Below, one piece after another: positions 30,902 through 44,685 of a stretch of DNA of 64,000 nt; position 1 is the first letter of the stretch; each line of letters begins with the position of its first letter. The stretch covers positions 496,001-560,000 of the forward strand of contig NZ_JAJVKW010000002.1 in assembly GCF_024198255.1 (NCBI RefSeq). Reading direction: 5' to 3'. The translations under genes were made by a program, and so were the position numbers. The notes beneath the pieces were generated by a model. That model was not told the origin of the DNA. It saw only the letters and a list, made by a program, of their open reading frames with translations, and searched no databases. Origin of the DNA: Myxococcus guangdongensis. GTDB lineage: Bacteria > Myxococcota > Myxococcia > Myxococcales > Myxococcaceae.

Positions 30902-32467
30902 ATGACCTTGCCCCTGCCCAATCTCACCCTGGCAGACTTCCTCCCGCTGCTGCCCGCCATCATCCTGGTGGTGGGAGCGTGCATCCTGCTGCTGTCGGAG
31001 GTGTTCCTCAGCACCACCGCGTCGCGGTCCTACCAGGCCGTGCTCGCCGTGGTGTCGGCGGTGGCGGCCGGCGCCGTGGCCGTGTCCAACATGTTCGAGC
31101 CGGCGCACGAGGCGTTCCTCGGCTTCGGCGTGCTGGACCCGTTCTCCAGCTTCCTCACCTTCGTGGTGTGCGTGGGCCTGGGGCTGGCGTCGCTCAGCTC
31201 CGTGAGCTTCCTGCGCAAGCGCGGCGCGGAGCGCGGTGAGTTCTACGCGCTGATGCTCTTCGCCGCGGCGGGCATGAGCCTGCTGGCGCTGTCCAACGAG
31301 CTCATCACCCTGTTCGTCAACCTGGAGGTCCTCTCCATCGCCACGTACGCGCTGACGTCGTACCTGCGGCGCGGGACGCGGCCCTCCGAGGCGGGCTTCA
31401 AGTACTTCATCCTGGGCGCGTTCTCGTCCGCGGTGCTGCTGTACGGCGCGGCGCTCCTGTACGGCGCCACCGGCACCACCAAGCTGACGGCGATGGCCGG
31501 CCCGCTGTCCACGGCGCTCGCCACCCAGCCGGCGCTGGTCTACGCGGGCCTCATCCTCCTGGGCTCCGGCTTCGCCTTCAAGGTGGCCGCGGTGCCGTTC
31601 CACATGTGGACGCCGGACGTCTACGAGGGTGCCCCCACCCCCGTCACCGCGCTGATGAGCGCGGGCGTGAAGGCGGCGGCCTTCGCGGCGCTGGTGCGCG
31701 TGTTCCTGACGGTGGGCAAGGGCATCGACCCGCAGATGCCGCTGGTGCTGTTCTCGTCGCTGGCCTTCCTCACCATGGTGGTGGGCAACCTGCTGGCGAT
31801 TCCGCAGCGCAACGTGAAGCGCATGCTGGCGTACTCGTCCATCGCGCACGCCGGCTACCTGCTGGTGGGCGTGGCGGCGCTCTTCGTGACGGCGCCGGGC
31901 GAGCAGTTCCGCCTGCTGGGACCGTCGGAGCTGACGGGTGGCTCGCCGCTGGAGCTGGCCCGCTCGCAGGCCCTGCGCGGCATCCTCTTCTACCTCTTGG
32001 CCTACACCTTCAGCGCGGTGGGCGCCTTCACCCTGGTCTCCGTGCTCGAGCGTCGCGAGGACGAGGAGAAGGGCACCGCCTGGGATTTGGAGCGCTTCAG
32101 CGGCCTGGCGCAGCGGCGTCCGGGTTGGGCCGTGGCGATGGCGGCGTTCATGCTGTCCCTGGGCGGGATTCCCCCCACCATCGGCTTCATGAGCAAGCTG
32201 CTCATCTTCCAGAGCGCAGTGGACTCGGGCCTCATCGGCCTGGCCATCATCGGCGTGCTGTCCAGCGCGGCGGGCGTCTATTACTACCTGCGCGTGGTGG
32301 TCTACATGTTCATGCGCCCGGTGCCCGAGGGCGCCCAGGCGCTGGAGCGCAGCTGGTCCACCGAGCTGGCCCTGGTGCTCTCCACCGCCGCCGTGGTGGT
32401 GCTGGGCATCCTCCCCGGCCCCGTCACCGCGTGGCTGGAGCAGGCCAGCAGCCTCTTCGGTCAGTAG
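30902..32467 (+). CDS. nuoN: NADH-quinone oxidoreductase subunit N (NuoN)
   Basis: A 521-residue antiporter-like subunit, the third of the complex I proton-pumping modules. LSNELITLFVNLEVLSIATY carries the conserved glutamate, and FKVAAVPFHMWTPDVYEGAP and SSIAHAGYLLVGV are typical. It ends the operon, with a hairpin terminator 31 bases after the stop. Confidence 0.96.
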   Translation: MTLPLPNLTLADFLPLLPAIILVVGACILLLSEVFLSTTASRSYQAVLAVVSAVAAGAVAVSNMFEPAHEAFLGFGVLDPFSSFLTFVVCVGLGLASLSSVSFLRKRGAERGEFYALMLFAAAGMSLLALSNELITLFVNLEVLSIATYALTSYLRRGTRPSEAGFKYFILGAFSSAVLLYGAALLYGATGTTKLTAMAGPLSTALATQPALVYAGLILLGSGFAFKVAAVPFHMWTPDVYEGAPTPVTALMSAGVKAAAFAALVRVFLTVGKGIDPQMPLVLFSSLAFLTMVVGNLLAIPQRNVKRMLAYSSIAHAGYLLVGVAALFVTAPGEQFRLLGPSELTGGSPLELARSQALRGILFYLLAYTFSAVGAFTLVSVLERREDEEKGTAWDLERFSGLAQRRPGWAVAMAAFMLSLGGIPPTIGFMSKLLIFQSAVDSGLIGLAIIGVLSSAAGVYYYLRVVVYMFMRPVPEGAQALERSWSTELALVLSTAAVVVLGILPGPVTAWLEQASSLFGQ

Positions 32468-33395: not shown

Positions 33396-33460
33396 CGGCC
33401 TGCCTCCGGCAAGGAAGGAGCGCTACCGACGCGAGCCTGACTCAACGCCCGACGGCACAA

Positions 33461-33499
33461 AAGAAGGCGGCCCGACACTCCAGGGGAGGGTCGGGCCGC
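33461..33499 (-). terminator. pxr: Intrinsic terminator of the pxr-like RNA
   Basis: On the minus strand GCGGCCCGAC (33499-33490) pairs perfectly with GTCGGGCCGC (33476-33467) and is followed by CTTCTTTTG. It is also stem-loop 3 of the RNA. It insulates the sRNA from the GNAT gene 66 bases further on. Confidence 0.8.
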
Positions 33500-33579
33500 G
33501 GGTCTTCTGAAGGTGACTCACCGGAAGTGCTGAAGGGGTGGGGGGGAACCGCCTTCAGCCTCGCTTCGATGTGTCCCGC
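33461..33579 (-). ncRNA. pxr: Pxr-like regulatory small RNA
   Basis: About 119 nt of structured RNA lie between the GNAT gene and the sigma-54 activator. Stem-loop 1 pairs GCTGAAGG (33559-33552) with CCTTCAGC (33536-33529) around a 15-base loop holding seven consecutive cytosines (33546-33540). Stem-loop 2 is built on GGTG/CACC (33522-33512) with an outer CTTC/GAAG pair. Stem-loop 3 is a perfect 10-bp GC stem with a T-rich tail. A -24/-12 promoter sits just upstream. In Myxococcus xanthus, Pxr is a sigma-54-dependent sRNA that blocks fruiting-body development when nutrients are plentiful. The neighbours, promoter class, three hairpins and C7 run all fit; the exact ends are inferred. Confidence 0.85.
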
Positions 33580-33589
33580 GTGAACCTAT

Positions 33590-33605
33590 AGCAGTCGCCG
33601 TGCCA
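33590..33605 (-). promoter_or_regulatory. pxr: Sigma-54 (-24/-12) promoter of the pxr-like RNA
   Basis: Minus-strand TGGCAC (33605-33600), five bases, then CTGCT (33594-33590) matches the sigma-54 consensus TGGCAC-N5-TTGCT at ten of eleven defined bases, with the -24 GG and -12 GC intact. The predicted transcription start is near 33579, just before stem-loop 1. Confidence 0.8.
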
Positions 33606-33676: not shown

Positions 33677-33767
33677 GATTGCATTTCAGCCCTGCAATCG
33701 GCTTTCAGAACTGAAAATCATCAATGAGTCCGGGCGGTTGTGTTTTTCACCGATGAACCCCGTTCAT
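33677..33767. promoter_or_regulatory. Three inverted repeats upstream of the pxr promoter (candidate activator sites)
   Basis: Three short dyads stand in an AT-richer stretch. They are GATTGCA/TGCAATC (33677-33683 and 33693-33699), TTTCAG/CTGAAA (33703-33708 and 33711-33716) and ATGAAC/GTTCAT (33753-33758 and 33762-33767). They lie about 98-188 bases upstream of the predicted start, the range where sigma-54 activators bind. None is followed by a T-run on either strand, which argues against terminators. Confidence 0.5.
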
Positions 33768-33816: not shown

Positions 33817-35262
33817 CTACTCCCGACCCACCTCGTTGGGCGGCCGGAGGTTGAGGCGCTTCATCTTGCGCCACAGGGTGGTGGAGGAGACGCCCAGCTC
33901 GTCGGCGACGCGGGCCAGGTCCACGCCGTGGCGCTCCAGGGACTGGGCGATGGCGCGGCGCTCGGCGTCCTCGACCACCTGGGCCAGGGTGGGCCCCGAG
34001 CTGGTGCCAGGAGGCAGACTGCCCGGGCCGTCCAGCATGCCCAGGGCGCTGGTGCCGGCGACGGGCGTCAGGCGGGCCTGGCGCAGCGGGAAGTCCTCGG
34101 GCAACAGCTCGTCGCTCTCCGAGAGCGCGGCGGCCTGCTCCACCAGGTTCTCCAGCTCGCGCACGTTGCCCGGGAAGTCGTAGCTCATCAGGTGCGTCAC
34201 CGCGGCGGCGGACAGGCGCCGGGGGTTGGGGCTGCGGGTGTTGGCGCGCCCCAGGAAGTGCTCGGCGAGCGCGGGCACGTCATCCAGGCGCTCACGCAGG
34301 GGCGGCACGCGCAGCGTCACCACGTTGAGGCGGTAGTAGAGGTCCTGGCGGAAGCGCTTCTCACGCACCTCCTGCTCGATGTCGCGGTTGGTGGCCGCCA
34401 CGGTGCGCACGTCCACGCGCAGCGCGGTGGACTCGCCCACGCGGCGCACCTCGCCCTCCTGCAGCGCGCGCAAGAGCTTCGACTGGAAGGTGGGGCTGGT
34501 CTCCGTCACCTCGTCGATGAAGAGCGTGCCGCCGTCAGCCTCCTCGAACAGGCCCCGGCGGGCCTTCACCGCGCCGGTGAAGGCGCCCTTCGCGTGGCCG
34601 AACAGCTCGCTCTCCAGCAGCGACTCGCTGATGGCCGCGCAGTTGACGGGCACGAAGGAGCGCCCCTTGCGGCGGCTGTGCGCGTGGAGCGCGCGCGCCA
34701 CCAGCTCCTTGCCCGTGCCGCTCTCGCCCTGGATGAGCACCGTGGCGTCGCTCTGGGCCACGCGCATCAGCCGCGAGGTGAGGTCCCTCATGGCGGCGCT
34801 GCGGCCCACCAGCGCGGACAGGCCGTGGCGCTCGTTGAAGTCCGTGGCCAGGTTGTCCACGTCGCGCAGCAGGCGCGCTCGCTCCAGGGCGCGCTCCACG
34901 CGGTAGCGCAGCTCGCTCTCCTTGAAGGGCTTGGTGACGTAGTCGTACGCACCCAGGCGCATGGCCTCCACCGCGCTCTCGATGGAGCCGAAGGCCGTCA
35001 TCATGATGACCTGCAGCCGCGGGGCCACCTCCAGCGCGCGCTTGAGGAGCGTGAGCCCGTCCATGGGCTCCATCTTCAAGTCCGTCAGGAGCAGGTCCAT
35101 GCTGCCGCCGGACAGGTGCGCCAGGGCTTCCTCGCCGGTGCCCGCCTCGAAGACGGTGTAGTGCTCGGCGCGCAGGAGCAGCGCGGTGGTCGCGCGCATG
35201 TTGCGCTGGTCGTCCACGACGAGGATGCGTCCGCGGGACGGCGGGAGGTTCGCGTCGGTCAT
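33817..35262 (-). CDS. NtrC-family sigma-54-dependent response regulator
   Basis: A 481-residue activator. Receiver domain 10-125 with phospho-acceptor Asp61 (LLTDLKMEPMDG). Central AAA+ domain with Walker A GESGTGKE (179-186) and the sigma-54-contacting GAFTGA (226-231), so it should remodel sigma-54 holoenzyme. Its C-terminal Fis-type helix-turn-helix is near 440-470 (VADELGVSSTTLWRKMKRL). Its ATG overlaps the stop of the sensor kinase gene by four bases, making them a clear pair. It is the natural candidate activator of the adjacent sigma-54 promoter of the pxr-like RNA, though it could equally act elsewhere. Confidence 0.95.
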   Translation of the reverse strand: MTDANLPPSRGRILVVDDQRNMRATTALLLRAEHYTVFEAGTGEEALAHLSGGSMDLLLTDLKMEPMDGLTLLKRALEVAPRLQVIMMTAFGSIESAVEAMRLGAYDYVTKPFKESELRYRVERALERARLLRDVDNLATDFNERHGLSALVGRSAAMRDLTSRLMRVAQSDATVLIQGESGTGKELVARALHAHSRRKGRSFVPVNCAAISESLLESELFGHAKGAFTGAVKARRGLFEEADGGTLFIDEVTETSPTFQSKLLRALQEGEVRRVGESTALRVDVRTVAATNRDIEQEVREKRFRQDLYYRLNVVTLRVPPLRERLDDVPALAEHFLGRANTRSPNPRRLSAAAVTHLMSYDFPGNVRELENLVEQAAALSESDELLPEDFPLRQARLTPVAGTSALGMLDGPGSLPPGTSSGPTLAQVVEDAERRAIAQSLERHGVDLARVADELGVSSTTLWRKMKRLNLRPPNEVGRE

Positions 35263-37775
35263 GGGAAGGACGGGGGCTGCGAGAGGGGAAGCCGGAAGGT
35301 GAAGGTGGTACCGCGACCGGGGGTGCTGTCCACGGCGATTTCGCCGCGGTGCTCCTCGAGGATTCGTTTCACGACAGCCAGCCCCAGGCCGGTGCCCTGG
35401 GCCTTGGTGGTGAAGAAGGGTTCGAAGACGCGGTGGAGCAGCTCGGCGGGAATCCCCGGCCCCTGGTCCGCCACGTCGATGCGCAGCTGCTCCCGGCCCG
35501 CGTGGGCCTCACGGCGCGCGCGCACCTGCACCAGGCCCCCCTGCGGCATGGACTGGATGGCGTTGACCGCCACGTTGACCAGCGCCTGGCGGATGAGCCG
35601 GCGGTCCATGGGCACGGGCGGCAGGCCCTGCTCCACCTCCGCGTCGATGCGCACGGGCCGGTCCGGCGCCCCACCCTGCGCGCGCGCCGCCTCCAGCGAG
35701 TCCTGCAGCACGCGGCTCAAGTCCTCGTGCTGGAGCACCGGGTCGCGGGGCCGCGTGTAGTCGAGCAAGTCGCCCACCATGCGGTTGAGGCGGTCGCTCT
35801 CCTCGCCCAGGATGTCCAGCAGCATGGCCGCGTCGCCCGAGGGCTCCAGGAGCCGGCGCAGCGAGGCCACCGCGTTGAAGATGACGCCCAGGGGGTTTCG
35901 CACCTCGTGGGCGACGATGGCGGACAGCTCGCCCAGGGCGGCCAGCCGCTCGCGCTTCACCATCTCCGCGCGCGTGGCGGCCAGCTCCGCGTAGCTGGCC
36001 CACAGCGATTCGTACAGGCGCGCGTTGGCGATGGAGAGTGACAGCTGGCCACACGTGGCCTCCGCCAGCTCCACCAGCTCCGGGCTGAACGTGCGCGCGC
36101 GGCGCGTGTCGTCCACCAGCACCACGCCGATGAGCTCCTCGCGCGAGGTGAGCGGCAGCGCCAGGAGCGCCTTCTCCCCGAAGCGCTGGACGAGCTGCGG
36201 ATTGAAGCCGCCGCCAGAGGCCTCCACGTCCTCGATGACCACCGGCTTGCGCTCGCGCGCGGCGCGCGATGCCACGCTGTCGCTGGAGAGCGACAACACC
36301 ACCGTGCGGAAGAAGTCGCGGTGCGCCGCGGAGGCCGCCGCGCCCCGGAGCACCTTCGCGCTCTCGTCGTACAGCATGATGTAGCAGTTGGAGACGTCCA
36401 GCAGGTGGACGAGGAAGTCCGACGCCACGTCGAGGATGCTCGAGGTCTCCAGCACGCCCGACGTCGTCCGGGCCAAATCCAGGAGCAGCCGCGTCTCGGT
36501 CAGCTGGCGTTCGGACTCCGAGCGCAGCCGGCGCTGCTCGAGCAACGTCACCAGCAGCTCCGACAGCGTCCCGAGCAGCCGCACGTCTCGCGCGTCGAAG
36601 GGACGGTCCGGCGCGCGCAGCACCTGGAGCACGCCGCACGCCTCGCCGCCTCGCGCCAGTCGCACCGCCGCGCCACTGCCCAACGTGCCTTGCGAAGCCT
36701 CGCGCAGCGCCTGGGCCTGCGCCTCGCTGGTGAGGTCGCCATCCAACGCGTCCGGCACCGAGCCGCCCATCACCCCCCCCAGCCGCGCCACGTCGCCGCC
36801 CGGGCCCACCACCTCCGTCAGGCCGACGTGGGCCGACAGCACCAGGGGCCCCTCCGTCTCCCGTGTCAGGTGCAGCACCGCGGCCTCCGCCAGCAGCAGC
36901 TCCGACACGCGCGAGAGGAAGTCCTCGGGCGTGGGTGGAATCGGCCGAGCCACGAAGCGCGCCATCTCCGCGACGGCCCCCACCTCCCACCGGCTGCGCG
37001 TGCTGTCCGACTGCACGCGCGCGTCCGTCAGCGCCGCGCCCACCACCTTCGCGAAGAGCGTCAGCACCGAGCCATGCCGGGGCGCCACCCACGGCCCCTC
37101 CACCCGAAGGACCTCCACCTGGGGGCCGCCGACGGGCAGGTACACGTGCGTGGGCGAGGCCCGCTCCGCGCCGCCGAACACGGGGCGCCCGTCCGACAGC
37201 GCCTCCAGCCCCAGGGCCACGTCCGGCGGAGGCGCGCCGCCATCGAGCGCGTTGAGCCGCAGACCGTCCCAGCGCAAGAGCCGCACCCGGAAGCCCGCGG
37301 CCTCCAGGCCCTTGAGGGCCACCCGTCGCACCGCGTCCTCGGAGTGCGCGGACACCAGGCTCGCGGAGGTCTCCACCAGCCGCTCCGCCATGGACAGCTC
37401 GGGGGGCTTGTCCGTCAGCGGCAGCAGGTTGAGCAGCAGCGCGTGCCGCCCGTCCTCCAGCGGGATTCGGGACGCGTAGAGGGCGACCTCGCGCGTGGCG
37501 CCGTCAGCCGAGGGCACCTGGTAGACCTGCGTCCTCGCCTCCATGGCCCCGCCGGACTCCACCAGGCGGTAGCGCTCGACGAGCCGGCTGCGCTCCTCGG
37601 GCTGGACGAAGTCCATGACGGAGCGCCCCTCCACCCGCTCGCGGGGCAGCCCCACCAGCGCGAGGTAGGCGTCATTGGCCGAGGACACACGCCCGTCCAC
37701 CACCGCGAGCACGGGGTTGCCGAAGGGCTCGATGAGGGCGCGCAGCGACGCCTCGCTGTAGTGGCTGGTGCTCAT
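35259..37775 (-). CDS. PAS/GAF sensor histidine kinase, partner of the sigma-54 regulator
   Basis: An 838-residue soluble-looking kinase with no clear membrane segment. It has an N-terminal PAS domain (about 8-125), then GAF-like regions (about 140-300, 310-470 and 480-600). The HisKA box AIVAHEVRNPLG has phospho-accepting His623. An HATPase domain follows with DQGPGIPAE, FEPFFTTKAQGTGLGLAV and GRGTTFTFRL. It should sense a cytoplasmic signal and phosphorylate the downstream NtrC-type regulator, with which it overlaps by four bases. The ATG at 37775 overlaps the selB stop in the same ATGA fashion; the frame upstream of it lies over selB. Confidence 0.93.
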   Translation of the reverse strand: MSTSHYSEASLRALIEPFGNPVLAVVDGRVSSANDAYLALVGLPRERVEGRSVMDFVQPEERSRLVERYRLVESGGAMEARTQVYQVPSADGATREVALYASRIPLEDGRHALLLNLLPLTDKPPELSMAERLVETSASLVSAHSEDAVRRVALKGLEAAGFRVRLLRWDGLRLNALDGGAPPPDVALGLEALSDGRPVFGGAERASPTHVYLPVGGPQVEVLRVEGPWVAPRHGSVLTLFAKVVGAALTDARVQSDSTRSRWEVGAVAEMARFVARPIPPTPEDFLSRVSELLLAEAAVLHLTRETEGPLVLSAHVGLTEVVGPGGDVARLGGVMGGSVPDALDGDLTSEAQAQALREASQGTLGSGAAVRLARGGEACGVLQVLRAPDRPFDARDVRLLGTLSELLVTLLEQRRLRSESERQLTETRLLLDLARTTSGVLETSSILDVASDFLVHLLDVSNCYIMLYDESAKVLRGAAASAAHRDFFRTVVLSLSSDSVASRAARERKPVVIEDVEASGGGFNPQLVQRFGEKALLALPLTSREELIGVVLVDDTRRARTFSPELVELAEATCGQLSLSIANARLYESLWASYAELAATRAEMVKRERLAALGELSAIVAHEVRNPLGVIFNAVASLRRLLEPSGDAAMLLDILGEESDRLNRMVGDLLDYTRPRDPVLQHEDLSRVLQDSLEAARAQGGAPDRPVRIDAEVEQGLPPVPMDRRLIRQALVNVAVNAIQSMPQGGLVQVRARREAHAGREQLRIDVADQGPGIPAELLHRVFEPFFTTKAQGTGLGLAVVKRILEEHRGEIAVDSTPGRGTTFTFRLPLSQPPSFP

Positions 37776-39688
37776 CCGCGACGCAGAACCCGCTTCTCGC
37801 CCACCCGGAGCGTCACCTTCTCCCGGTCGAAGTACTCGGACAGAGGGATGACGAACTTGCGGCTCTGTCCCACCAATTCCTTGAAGGACTGGGTGGTAAT
37901 GTCCTTCTTCTCGCGCAGGTGGGCAACCAGCCGTTCCTTCAAGGCCCCCAGACTGCCCGCGTCGAAGCACAGCTCCTCGCTGACGCGGACCACCTTGCCT
38001 TCGGCCATCAATGTTTTCAGCAGCTCGCGCAGGCGGGGCGCCGGGAGCTGGAGCTTCTGGGACAGCTCGCCCTCGGTGGGCGGCGCCAGCCCCGCCGCGG
38101 ACAGCTCCGCGGCGAGCCGCGCCCGCGCCGCCTCGTCCCCCAACGACAGCGCGCGTCCGCGCCCCTTCAGGCGCACCAGGTCCCGCTCGACCTCCAGCTT
38201 CCCCGCGTCCCCCAGCCCCTGCAACACCCGCTGGAAGGCCCGCGCATCCAACTCGCCGGACAGCCGCTGACGAAGCTCTTCGCGGGACAAGCCCTCACGC
38301 AAGGGCTCACGCTCGTGGAAGGCCGCCAGCACCGCGAGCGCCCGGCCTTGCAGCCCCTCGAGCACCTCGCCGGACAGGTACAGCCGGCTCTCCCGGTCCA
38401 ACAGCACCACCGCGCCCCGCGCGCCCAGGAGCTCCAGCGCGCGCGTGAGCACCTTGGGTCCCAGCGCCGAGCGGCCGAACAGCGCCTGCTGCGTGAGCCC
38501 CGCGTAGCCCGCCTGCCGGAGCAGCCACGCCACCTGCCCCGCCGGGTCCGCTTCTCGCAACGGCGCCACGATGGACGCGCCACCCTTGCGGCGCCTGGGC
38601 GGGGAAATCGACAGCACGCGCCCGCCCGCCACCGTCGCGCCCCGCCCCGGCAGCGCGCGTGAGCCCCGCAGGATGAAGCGCTGCCCCACGAGCGCGGCCA
38701 CCGGTGCGTCCAGGCGCAGCTGCGCGAGCGTCGTCTCGCCGGGCTCCAGCCGCTCCACGTCCAGCAGCGCCACCGTGGCCTCCACCTGCGCGGTGCCCAG
38801 GTGCAACAGCAGCTTGCGGCGGCGCGGCAGGGGCGACGGCGCGGAGGGGAGCAGCGTCAGCTCCACGTCGAGCATGCGCGTCTCGGGCAGCTCTCCTGCG
38901 CGCGTCAGCACCTGCCCCCGGTGGAGCGACTCCGGCTCCACGCCGGGCAGATTCACCGCGGCGCGCTGGCCCGCCTCCACCCGCGTCACCGCGCGCCCAT
39001 GCTGCTGCACCCCGCGCACGCGCAGCGGCCCGGGCGTGCCTGGCAGGAGCGACACCGCGTCGTCCACCGCCACCGTGCCCGACAGGAGCGTGCCCGTCAC
39101 CACGGTGCCGAAGCCCTTGAGGGTGAAGACGCGGTCCACCGGCAGGAAGGTGGGCCCCTCCGAGGGGCGCTTGCCCAGCGAGCCCACGGCCCGGGTGAGC
39201 GCCGCGCGCAGCGCCACGAGCCCCTCGCCCGTGCGCGTCGAGCACGGCACCACCGGCGCGCCCTCCAGGAACGAGCCCGCGGTGAGCGCGGCGAGGTCCG
39301 CCTCCACCAGCGCGCGCCACTCGGGCCCCGGCTCCGCCAGCAGGTCCGACTTGGTGAGCGCGACGACGCCGGCGCGAACGCCCAGCAGACTGCAGATGTC
39401 CAGGTGCTCGCGCGTCTGGGGCATCACGCCCTCGTCCGACGCCACCACCAGCACCGCCAGGTCCACGCCGCCCGCGCCCGCGGCCATCGCCTTCACGAAG
39501 CGCTCGTGGCCCGGCACGTCGACGACGCCCGCGAGGGTGCCGTCGTCCAGCGTCAGGTGCGCGAAGCCCAGCTCCAGGGTGATGCCCCGGCGCTTCTCCT
39601 CCTGGAGCCGGTCCGTGTCGATGCCGGTGAGGGCCTTCACCAACGACGTCTTGCCGTGGTCGATGTGGCCCGCCGTCCCGACAATCAT
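37772..39688 (-). CDS. selB: Selenocysteine-specific elongation factor (SelB)
   Basis: A 638-residue translational GTPase that delivers selenocysteyl-tRNA to the ribosome at UGA codons with a SECIS element. GTPase motifs GTAGHIDHGKTS (4-15), RGITLELGFA, DVPGHERF and TKSD are intact. Two beta-barrel domains follow, then C-terminal winged helices (from about 400) that read the SECIS RNA. The ATG at 39688 begins MIVGTAGHIDHGK, the family start. Its stop overlaps the histidine kinase start. selA, selD and tRNA-Sec are not seen in the window. Confidence 0.94.
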   Translation of the reverse strand: MIVGTAGHIDHGKTSLVKALTGIDTDRLQEEKRRGITLELGFAHLTLDDGTLAGVVDVPGHERFVKAMAAGAGGVDLAVLVVASDEGVMPQTREHLDICSLLGVRAGVVALTKSDLLAEPGPEWRALVEADLAALTAGSFLEGAPVVPCSTRTGEGLVALRAALTRAVGSLGKRPSEGPTFLPVDRVFTLKGFGTVVTGTLLSGTVAVDDAVSLLPGTPGPLRVRGVQQHGRAVTRVEAGQRAAVNLPGVEPESLHRGQVLTRAGELPETRMLDVELTLLPSAPSPLPRRRKLLLHLGTAQVEATVALLDVERLEPGETTLAQLRLDAPVAALVGQRFILRGSRALPGRGATVAGGRVLSISPPRRRKGGASIVAPLREADPAGQVAWLLRQAGYAGLTQQALFGRSALGPKVLTRALELLGARGAVVLLDRESRLYLSGEVLEGLQGRALAVLAAFHEREPLREGLSREELRQRLSGELDARAFQRVLQGLGDAGKLEVERDLVRLKGRGRALSLGDEAARARLAAELSAAGLAPPTEGELSQKLQLPAPRLRELLKTLMAEGKVVRVSEELCFDAGSLGALKERLVAHLREKKDITTQSFKELVGQSRKFVIPLSEYFDREKVTLRVGEKRVLRRG

Positions 39689-44142: not shown

Positions 44143-44685
44143 GACTGCTCCCTCTTCCTTTTCGTCGAGTTCCCCCCCACCACGGGGGGGAAATAGGCCC
44201 GCCGGGCGTCAGCCCTGGCAGGTTGCCTTCCACGTATAGCAGTGCGCCCTGACATTTCCAGAAGGCGGACCGCGGCACGGGGTCCGCCCGGGCGACAGCG
44301 CACCAGACGAGCAGGCAGGACCTGACGGGTACGGGACGGGCCCACCTGGGCGTGAACCCGAGGGCTCAGCGCACGGGACGGCACTCGAGGCGAACCAGGA
44401 CGGAGGTGCGTCCCCGAGCGTCGCGCGGCGGAGCCAGCCCTGAAGCACGGCCGGGGCCCCCGCACAGCGCTGTAGCTCGGCGATGCGAGGCGCGGGGCCC
44501 AAGGCCCGACAGCACGTGAAGCCCACACGTCCGGGGGCTTCGAGGCACGGGATGGGCGGTACGAAATCACCGCCCGGGTGCGGCTCGGCGATGCGAGCCC
44601 CAGCCAACACCCGGAGGCCACGCGCCCAGGCACCTTCCGGTCCGACGAGACGCGGAAGATGGGCGCGCGCGTGGCGCGACGCTCG
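44143..44685. other. Gene-free stretch between ssb and dacB with degenerate repeats
   Basis: About 540 bases without a convincing gene; the open frames here lack homology and look like chance ORFs in GC-rich DNA. A motif of about 31 bases (CGCCCGGGTGCGGCTCGGCG...) at 44571-44601 recurs, with about four mismatches, at 44691-44721 inside the 3' end of dacB. A shorter copy (GCTCGGCGATGCGAGGC) occurs near 44475. It also holds the ssb leader hairpin. Confidence 0.5.
44170..44192 (-). promoter_or_regulatory. ssb: GC-clamp hairpin in the ssb leader
   Basis: On the minus strand TTCCCCCCC pairs with GGGGGGGAA across a GTGGT loop: nine perfect pairs, seven of them G-C, 28 bases before the ssb start and just ahead of its ribosome-binding site. 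It could affect initiation or transcript stability; no T-run follows, so it is not a standard terminator. Confidence 0.45.

Follow-up and report, generated by a model that had tools for sequence, protein, structure and literature searches.

The pxr locus and its neighbours

The window, by which we mean the whole 64-kb stretch of DNA analysed, carries nuoN and, facing it on the minus strand, pxrA (a GNAT gene), pxr, pxrR and pxrK, in the order known for M. xanthus (Table 1). RF01812, the Rfam family for Pxr, is the only family with a match at gathering score in the window; its whole model aligns to 33459-33566 on the minus strand with 120 bits against a cut-off of 80 (E 6e-21). A search of this 11.2-Mb Myxococcus genome with RF01812 finds pxr in single copy, and the same RNA sequence recurs in one close genome (G099). 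Judged by sequence, the pxr gene of this Myxococcus species lies at 33459-33579 on the minus strand, and pxr is a known kind of gene. Beyond the known gene, and past the excerpts of the literature consulted, lie the paired leader P0, the predicted PxrR sites and the compact relatives described below.

A preliminary description of this DNA had placed a pxr orthologue here, in a Cystobacterineae host, with a GNAT gene on one side and a sigma-54 activator and histidine kinase on the other. The RF01812 score and the neighbours, which are those published, bear out the orthology; the flanking genes are confirmed by their Pfam domains, and the host falls within the Myxococcaceae (genus g1). Sigma-54 dependence and repression of development, which that description also named, agree with published accounts in the excerpts on which we draw here and below: Pxr of M. 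xanthus blocks development and needs the SL1 loop, PxrR/PxrK and RNase D (PMC5684412, PMC10217877), and its gene sits between nla19/pxrR and an NADH dehydrogenase gene (PMC5568312).

Table 1. Genes, RNA elements and predicted control sites at the pxr locus, in window coordinates
Feature	Position	Strand	Basis or remark
nuoN, conserved convergent neighbour	30902-32467	+	Pfam Proton_antipo_M
pxrA, GNAT acetyltransferase, 278 aa	32559-33395	-	Pfam
pxr sRNA, predicted full transcript of ~121 nt	33459-33579	-	RF01812 over 33459-33566; start inferred from promoter
SL3 / intrinsic terminator	33462-33508	-	RF01812, covariation, best fold
P0 helix, 3' strand (region published as 'SL2')	33512-33523	-	Best fold, leader:mid pairing, covariation; comparison with SL2
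SL1 hairpin	33525-33562	-	RF01812, covariation, best fold
SL1 loop core GGTTCCCCCCCACC, presumed pairing seed	33537-33550	-	Identical in 110/119 Myxococcaceae copies
P0 helix, 5' strand, leader GGGACACAUCG	33567-33577	-	Best fold, leader:mid pairing, covariation
Predicted sigma-54 promoter TGGCACGGCGACTGCT	33590-33605	-	GG-N10-GC
Predicted PxrR site 1, TTTCAGCCCTGCAA on + strand	33684-33697	-	Degenerate palindrome, centre -111.5
Predicted PxrR site 2, TTTCAGAACTGAAA on + strand	33703-33716	-	Degenerate palindrome, centre -130.5
pxrR, NtrC-type response regulator, 481 aa	33817-35262	-	Pfam Response_reg, Sigma54_activat, HTH_8
pxrK, PAS/GAF histidine kinase	35259-37970	-	Pfam

The GNAT protein MXAN_1079 has been identified as PxrA, with residues numbered to 278, the length found here, and under a strict cut-off pxrA was reported from Myxococcus only (PMC11928866). 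Judged by coordinates, it lies beside pxr in 34 of the 96 Myxococcaceae genomes, among them Hyalangium-like and Archangium-like genera at 46-54% identity. nuoN is also the neighbour in loci L298, L281, L282, L297 and L300. The homology of pxrK starts at about residue 113-150 in the fetched loci that include its 5' part (many loci end there), and its true start probably lies downstream of the listed GTG.

The preliminary description had also read a -24/-12 promoter on the minus strand, and this reading holds: the predicted sigma-54 promoter has the form TGGCAC-N5-CTGC, with TGGCAC at 33605-33600, CTGCT at 33594-33590 and GG-N10-GC spacing. Setting the start 12 nt past the -12 element places it at about 33579. 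In the genome search, model R1, built on predicted full transcripts, matches 33459-33578 of the window. The predicted transcript (33579-33459) folds at -61.5 kcal/mol, whereas 200 dinucleotide shuffles average -40.5 (sd 3.6) and none is as good (z -5.9); the strong terminator described earlier is likewise there, following the strongly folding RNA on the minus strand.

In a class-wide survey run with stricter filters, RF01812 matches 93 of 147 genomes at E<=0.001 (61 above the cut-off), all of them in the Myxococcaceae (f1, 96 genomes); the matches G076:C1:1410810 and G055:C46 were rejected as false on inspection. Our comparison covers 119 copies, up to five per genome, drawn from 80 of the 93 genomes; 11 Corallococcus and 2 Myxococcus genomes were left out. 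GG-N10-GC lies upstream of 117 of the 119 copies and the stricter TGG[CT][ACG][CT]-N7-GC upstream of 114; the former is absent in g21 (2 copies). A switch to a sigma-70 promoter in the small g23 genomes was suspected and dropped, because GG-N10-GC is present there. Loci L059 and L060 (G122, G123) have pxr apart from pxrR and no GG-N10-GC; TTGTCA-N17-TAT(T/C)TG stands upstream, and the promoter type may therefore have changed. A contig labelled Comamonas sp. KCTC 72670 (L104, BNCN01000002.1, 969165 bases) carries pxr; this label looks wrong.

The window copy resembles M. xanthus Pxr (RF01812) in sequence, gene order, sigma-54 promoter, the C7 loop of SL1 and the conserved SL3 core. It differs in carrying another SL3 allele, and we read it as a two-domain RNA with a paired leader and two predicted PxrR sites. 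With the tandem Pxr paralogues of Cystobacter and Archangium it shares the family, the possession of its own sigma-54 promoter and the SL1 core, whereas the window genome has a single copy.

Predicted folding of the full-length RNA

The window copy keeps SL1 with an intact C-rich loop (GGTTCCCCCCCACC), as well as the conserved core and terminator of SL3 (GCGGCCCG/CGGGCCGC); in the nine remaining Myxococcaceae copies the loop core is a variant of GGTTCCCCCCCACC. In the best fold of the predicted full-length transcript, the partner of the leader GGGACACAUCG is the strand assigned to 'SL2' in the literature; the two form a helix, P0, that makes SL1 part of one long hairpin. Of 117 predicted transcripts, counted as copies and including identical ones, 116 show at least six leader:mid pairs in their best fold; two copies are left out of this test, namely the second copy of G052, which forms no P0, and that of G092, the only g17 member. 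The three stem-loops in about 119 nt of the preliminary description stand in part: the length agrees with the ~121 nt predicted here and three stem-loops fit the 108-nt Rfam interval, but once the leader is added the best fold is one of two hairpins.

The leader prefers its own partner when genera are compared. With one representative each from 24 of 25 genera, own leader:mid pairing averages -17.03 kcal/mol, against -12.95 (sd 0.67) when partners are swapped between genera, the best of 1000 swaps reaching -15.05. Shuffled leaders pair at -12.46 kcal/mol (best of 300, -14.32), windows shifted upstream at -10.5 to -12.5, and the leader with the SL3 arm at -13.9. The effect is one of averages: the own partner ranks first in five of the 24 genera and within the top four in 13, and for the genus of the window 11 foreign partners pair as well as or better than its own.

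Covariation in the stems, named in the preliminary description as a test on which its reading would stand or fall, is present. For P0 and SL2 we used a sequence-only alignment of 46 transcripts, comprising up to three per genus and the window. The diverged copy L048 (G088) was left out of alignments A1 and A2 and L041, with one N, out of A1, while two g21 transcripts entered A2 with an arbitrary start because no GG-N10-GC was found there. P0 pairs are formed in 79.5% of the cells of the 46 transcripts against 36-48% in slid versions, with 75 double-change cells against 20-42 and a covariation score of 0.457 against at most 0.205. Two of the five measures taken for P0 are without clear excess: eight pairs have a double change against 7.2 in shuffles (216 of 500 as high), and the number of further pair types is not above every slid version. 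Compensatory changes between genera thus occur in P0, and we infer, from folding and covariation models, that this helix is real and SL2 at most an alternative.

The main competing account holds that the published fold of three stem-loops (SL1, SL2, SL3) is the functional one and that the leader is untranscribed or unpaired. It is the published model (PMC5568312, PMC5684412) and the Rfam structure, and when the RNA is cut at the Rfam start, leaving the 108-nt interval, an SL2-like hairpin appears in 95 of 119 folds. The published SL2 pairs also exceed their slid controls, being formed in 75.2% of cells against 32-64%, with 13 double-change cells against 4-12 and a score of 0.332 against at most 0.198; a P0/SL2 switch is therefore possible. 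Against this account, the short separate SL2 hairpin is absent from the best fold of the full window transcript, where forcing it costs 5.9 kcal/mol, and an SL2-like local hairpin occurs in one of 117 full predicted transcripts. SL2 surpasses its slid controls by less than P0 does, P0 has more double changes and the higher covariation score, and the related f3 and f6 RNAs consist of little more than P0 and SL1. We therefore consider the three-stem-loop account unlikely. The comparisons suggest a fold that departs from the published one, with the published SL2 probably representing what the mid strand does in folding models once the 5' leader is missing. Known Pxr occurs in Pxr-XL, Pxr-L and Pxr-S forms, with processing by RNase D; it is no more than a guess that the leader is lost between Pxr-L and Pxr-S.

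If the leader is one strand of a helix, then in the assays of PMC5568312, where alleles were placed behind upstream DNA of M. xanthus, the alleles had to work with a P0 strand that was not their own. When the Myxococcus leader is joined in silico to the RNAs of nine genomes, P0 still forms in all 27 folds (10-16 pairs), and first tandem copies lose about 3-5 kcal/mol. As a cause of the failing Cystobacter alleles, foreign-leader chimeras were set aside on these folds, which are not decisive.

Control of pxr and its candidate targets

In M. xanthus, synthesis of Pxr is reported to be under the control of PxrK and PxrR (PMC10217877, PMC5684412). The pattern TTKCA-N4-TGMAA occurs exactly twice in the 64-kb window, both times upstream of pxr, and precedes 109 of 118 Myxococcaceae copies at a distance of 40-260 nt, against 3.7% of random 220-nt stretches of the compared loci. 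This enrichment is partly by construction, because the pattern was read off these upstream regions; not built into it are its placement, the window count and its absence in genera without PxrR. No occurrence was found in g21 (0/2) or g23 (0/3), two genera without a detected PxrR orthologue, and the pattern is also missing from one of two copies of g13, two of four of g20 and the single g16 copy. Since the sites recur and are absent from g21 and g23, the paired occurrences are probably PxrR sites, to which PxrR would bind. An earlier candidate, TTGCA-N7..11-TGCAA, had exact occurrences at 5 of 118 Myxococcaceae copies and gave way to TTKCA-N4-TGMAA; with up to two mismatches, TTGCA-N9-TGCAA is present at 59% of 142 places against 2%.

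PxrR orthologues are set apart from paralogues by E<=1.4e-147 against at least 4e-121, and were found in 130 of 195 genomes of the phylum, 87 of the 96 Myxococcaceae and 43 of the 99 others. In six Myxococcaceae genomes the RNA is present and PxrR was not found (G087, G122, G123 and G125-G127), the contigs of G049 and G124 are broken at the PxrR place, and G134 has neither RNA nor PxrR. The genomes of G125-G127 (L062, L063, L064) are small, at 2.1-2.7 Mb with 53-54% GC in the fetched loci; they keep pxr after nuoN, with no PxrR orthologue and no predicted PxrR site found.

In the mechanism that we propose, PxrK and PxrR would act through the two predicted upstream sites (33684-33716) on the sigma-54 promoter, which would yield the ~121-nt RNA during growth. 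This RNA would consist of two domains, a long 5' hairpin (P0 and SL1) with a C7 loop and the 3' terminator hairpin SL3, and its C-loop would pair with G-rich stretches of mRNAs, thereby holding development back. C-rich single-stranded loops that presumably pair with G-rich mRNA stretches are also described for RepG of Helicobacter and RsaE of Staphylococcus; their promoters and structures differ from those of Pxr, and the likeness, drawn from descriptions, implies no claim of homology.

Alternatively, pxr could act in cis, its terminator setting the read-through into pxrA, so that the rise of pxrA in pxr deletions would reflect lost termination rather than lost pairing. The start of pxrA, 63 nt past the RNA end, is compatible with this, and a positional effect was left possible by the authors of the deletion study in the excerpt cited (PMC11928866). 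We regard such a cis role as quite improbable: altering a single position of the SL1 loop is enough to destroy function (PMC5684412), development is blocked by heterologous alleles of pxr (PMC5568312), earlier data cited in PMC11928866 have pxrA raised with impaired Pxr function, and a close pxrA beside pxr was not found in 62 of 96 Myxococcaceae genomes, while the RNA is present in 95 of them.

The proposed pairing through the loop invites a search for complements of the SL1 core. A perfect complement of GGTTCCCCCCCACC is listed once in the genome, at pxr itself. Matches to the loop complement number 228 in the window genome against 119 for the reversed pattern, and no target emerged among the seven one-mismatch places read there. 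In three genomes of 2.1-2.7 Mb, complements of their own loops with up to two mismatches number 46, 60 and 54 against 82, 69 and 70 for the reversed pattern, without enrichment. In the window, a 13/14 complement of the core lies 26-39 nt before the start of ssb; ssb was rejected as a target because the G-run is not kept, the genus retaining only a hairpin of varying sequence.

The ssb leader hairpin itself (TTTCCCCCCCGTGGTGGGGGGGAA, window 44170-44193, minus strand) is kept over the Myxococcaceae and seems to have a covarying stem. Across 51 distinct leaders, which represent 56 of 67 loci, variation is seen at six of the nine consensus pairs, each still formed in 38-50 leaders, and three C-G pairs are invariant. 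Going by these leader sequences, it is possibly an undescribed cis-regulatory element.

Compact relatives outside the Myxococcaceae

The origin of Pxr has been placed within the suborder Cystobacterineae or the Myxococcaceae (PMC5568312, PMC5684412, PMC11928866, PMC8538405, in excerpt), and RF01812 has no match outside the Myxococcaceae at E<=0.001, nor any at E<=1 in eight loci. Model R1, made for the full RNA from Myxococcaceae (f1) only and run over 195 genomes of the phylum, matches 115 of them at E<=0.01, including 95 of 96 Myxococcaceae, and finds RNAs in f3, f6 and f7. In the Anaeromyxobacter-like genome G013 the match lies directly 3' of a PxrR orthologue; its RNA is a single hairpin, P0 and SL1 with loop GGTCCCCCCCCGCC, in which the P0 stem is followed by a T-run, with no SL3. 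The f3 and f6 RNAs are essentially of this kind, with P0 predicted to act as their own terminator stem in place of SL3. R1 also picks plain terminators, at 5 of the 19 places examined (G137:C44, G005:C97, G054:C699, G061:C111 and G065:C109, all rejected).

A second model, R2, was built from nine compact RNAs of f3, f6 and f7 only. Its alignment has 94.3% of cells paired and 16 double-change cells against 1-3 in slid versions, with a structure taken from one of the nine RNAs, which favours it. At E<=0.05 it matches 114 of 195 genomes, 84 of the 96 Myxococcaceae and 30 of the 99 others, and a reading of the list shows every Myxococcaceae place to be a pxr place. The match spans SL1 only in Myxococcus (model 20-50 of 73; E 0.0014 in the window genome) and the whole model in Corallococcus and several other genera; the best Myxococcaceae match is in G089 (E 3e-7, model 6-62).

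We inspected 39 places outside the Myxococcaceae and accepted 38. GG-N10-GC lies 23-34 nt upstream in 38 of the 39, against 15% at random positions, and the strict sigma-54 motif at 32 of 39, against 0.14%; the R2 match in G148 was rejected for having no promoter. The accepted genomes comprise 29 found by R2 and G037, matched by R1 alone. In 14 PxrR-positive, R2-negative genomes we read the DNA that follows PxrR, which added two RNAs, in G143 and G032 (0.0014 and 1.5e-4 with R2 run unfiltered); none was seen after PxrR in ten, and G144 (a C-run at a contig end) and G020 (contig end) were left out of the count. Outside the inspected set are the R1 matches in G001, G140 and G185, the additional R1 matches (second or third) of many f1 genomes, the R2 match G018:C1:20537 and antisense R2 matches.

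In total, a compact C-loop RNA is present in 32 of 99 genomes outside the Myxococcaceae, one of them outside the class. It is shorter than Pxr and usually a single hairpin with a C-rich loop and a predicted sigma-54 promoter; f2, f4 and G143 of f9 have a separate terminator hairpin 3' of the C-loop hairpin. The RNA adjoins PxrR in 13 of 16 R2-positive f3 genomes and G032, in all three of f6, in G143 and in G188, a genome from outside the class whose RNA has a looser C-rich loop; it comes directly after PxrR in f3, f6, f27 and G143. In the R2-positive genomes of f2, f5, f7 and f8, PxrR lies elsewhere in the genome. TTKCA-N4-TGMAA precedes 27 of 36 places outside the Myxococcaceae. The RNA occurs in 31 of 43 PxrR-positive outside genomes (G144 not counted) and in one of 56 PxrR-negative ones, G037; these genomes are related, and the counts are not a test on independent samples.

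That the compact RNAs are unrelated terminators or repeats, alike by chance or convergence, is very improbable: RF01812 misses them, the f3/f6 forms lack SL3 and R1 does pick plain terminators, but the two models match in both directions, and the C-rich loops, promoters, predicted PxrR sites and ties to PxrR all recur. We therefore treat them, on these sequence criteria and with the Myxococcus R2 match covering SL1 only, as homologues of Pxr and not as members of RF01812 as defined. An Anaeromyxobacter dehalogenans 2CP-C-like genome (G014) is among the hosts, with the compact RNA predicted at G014:C1:489322-489394; for strain 2CP-C, sporulation was never observed and devRS and fruCD are lacking, according to the excerpt cited (PMC2330069). 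Comparison of genomes suggests that older relatives of Pxr occur in bacteria for which fruiting bodies are not known. The matches listed in a limited search of literature titles include no report of the compact RNA or the paired leader.

The RNA at this locus may then be the Myxococcaceae form of an older C-loop hairpin RNA linked to sigma-54 and PxrR and present in many Myxococcales genomes. We hold the explanation as a whole, a Myxococcus pxr under PxrK, PxrR, two sites and sigma-54, with an RNA of P0 and SL1 plus SL3 and an older C-loop ancestry, with high confidence. It is also likely, if less firmly so, that Pxr was not born as a developmental regulator: an old PxrK-PxrR-sigma-54 C-loop regulon of the Myxococcales would have been given a terminator domain and tied to development later, with the fold P0 and SL1 plus SL3 and with a loop target that is older and non-developmental.

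Pxr is an sRNA with a clean multicellular phenotype. If the loop and its control by a two-component system and sigma-54 are older than current accounts have it, direct targets can be sought in relatives with small genomes, in organisms not known to develop and through conservation across families. P0 alters which strands stay free to pair and bears on the processing of Pxr-L to Pxr-S, and the predicted PxrR site makes the remaining regulon searchable.

Several genomes hold more than one compact RNA. In L285 2116-2735 (G041) and L345-L349 (G138, G139) there are three to four compact C-loop RNAs per genome, all preceded by GG-N10-GC. In f3 a further hairpin type, diverged and with a GGGGACCCCCC(C)GCACC-like loop, occurs in L338, L335, L336 and L340; it has no pxrR orthologue alongside, and G024 holds both types.
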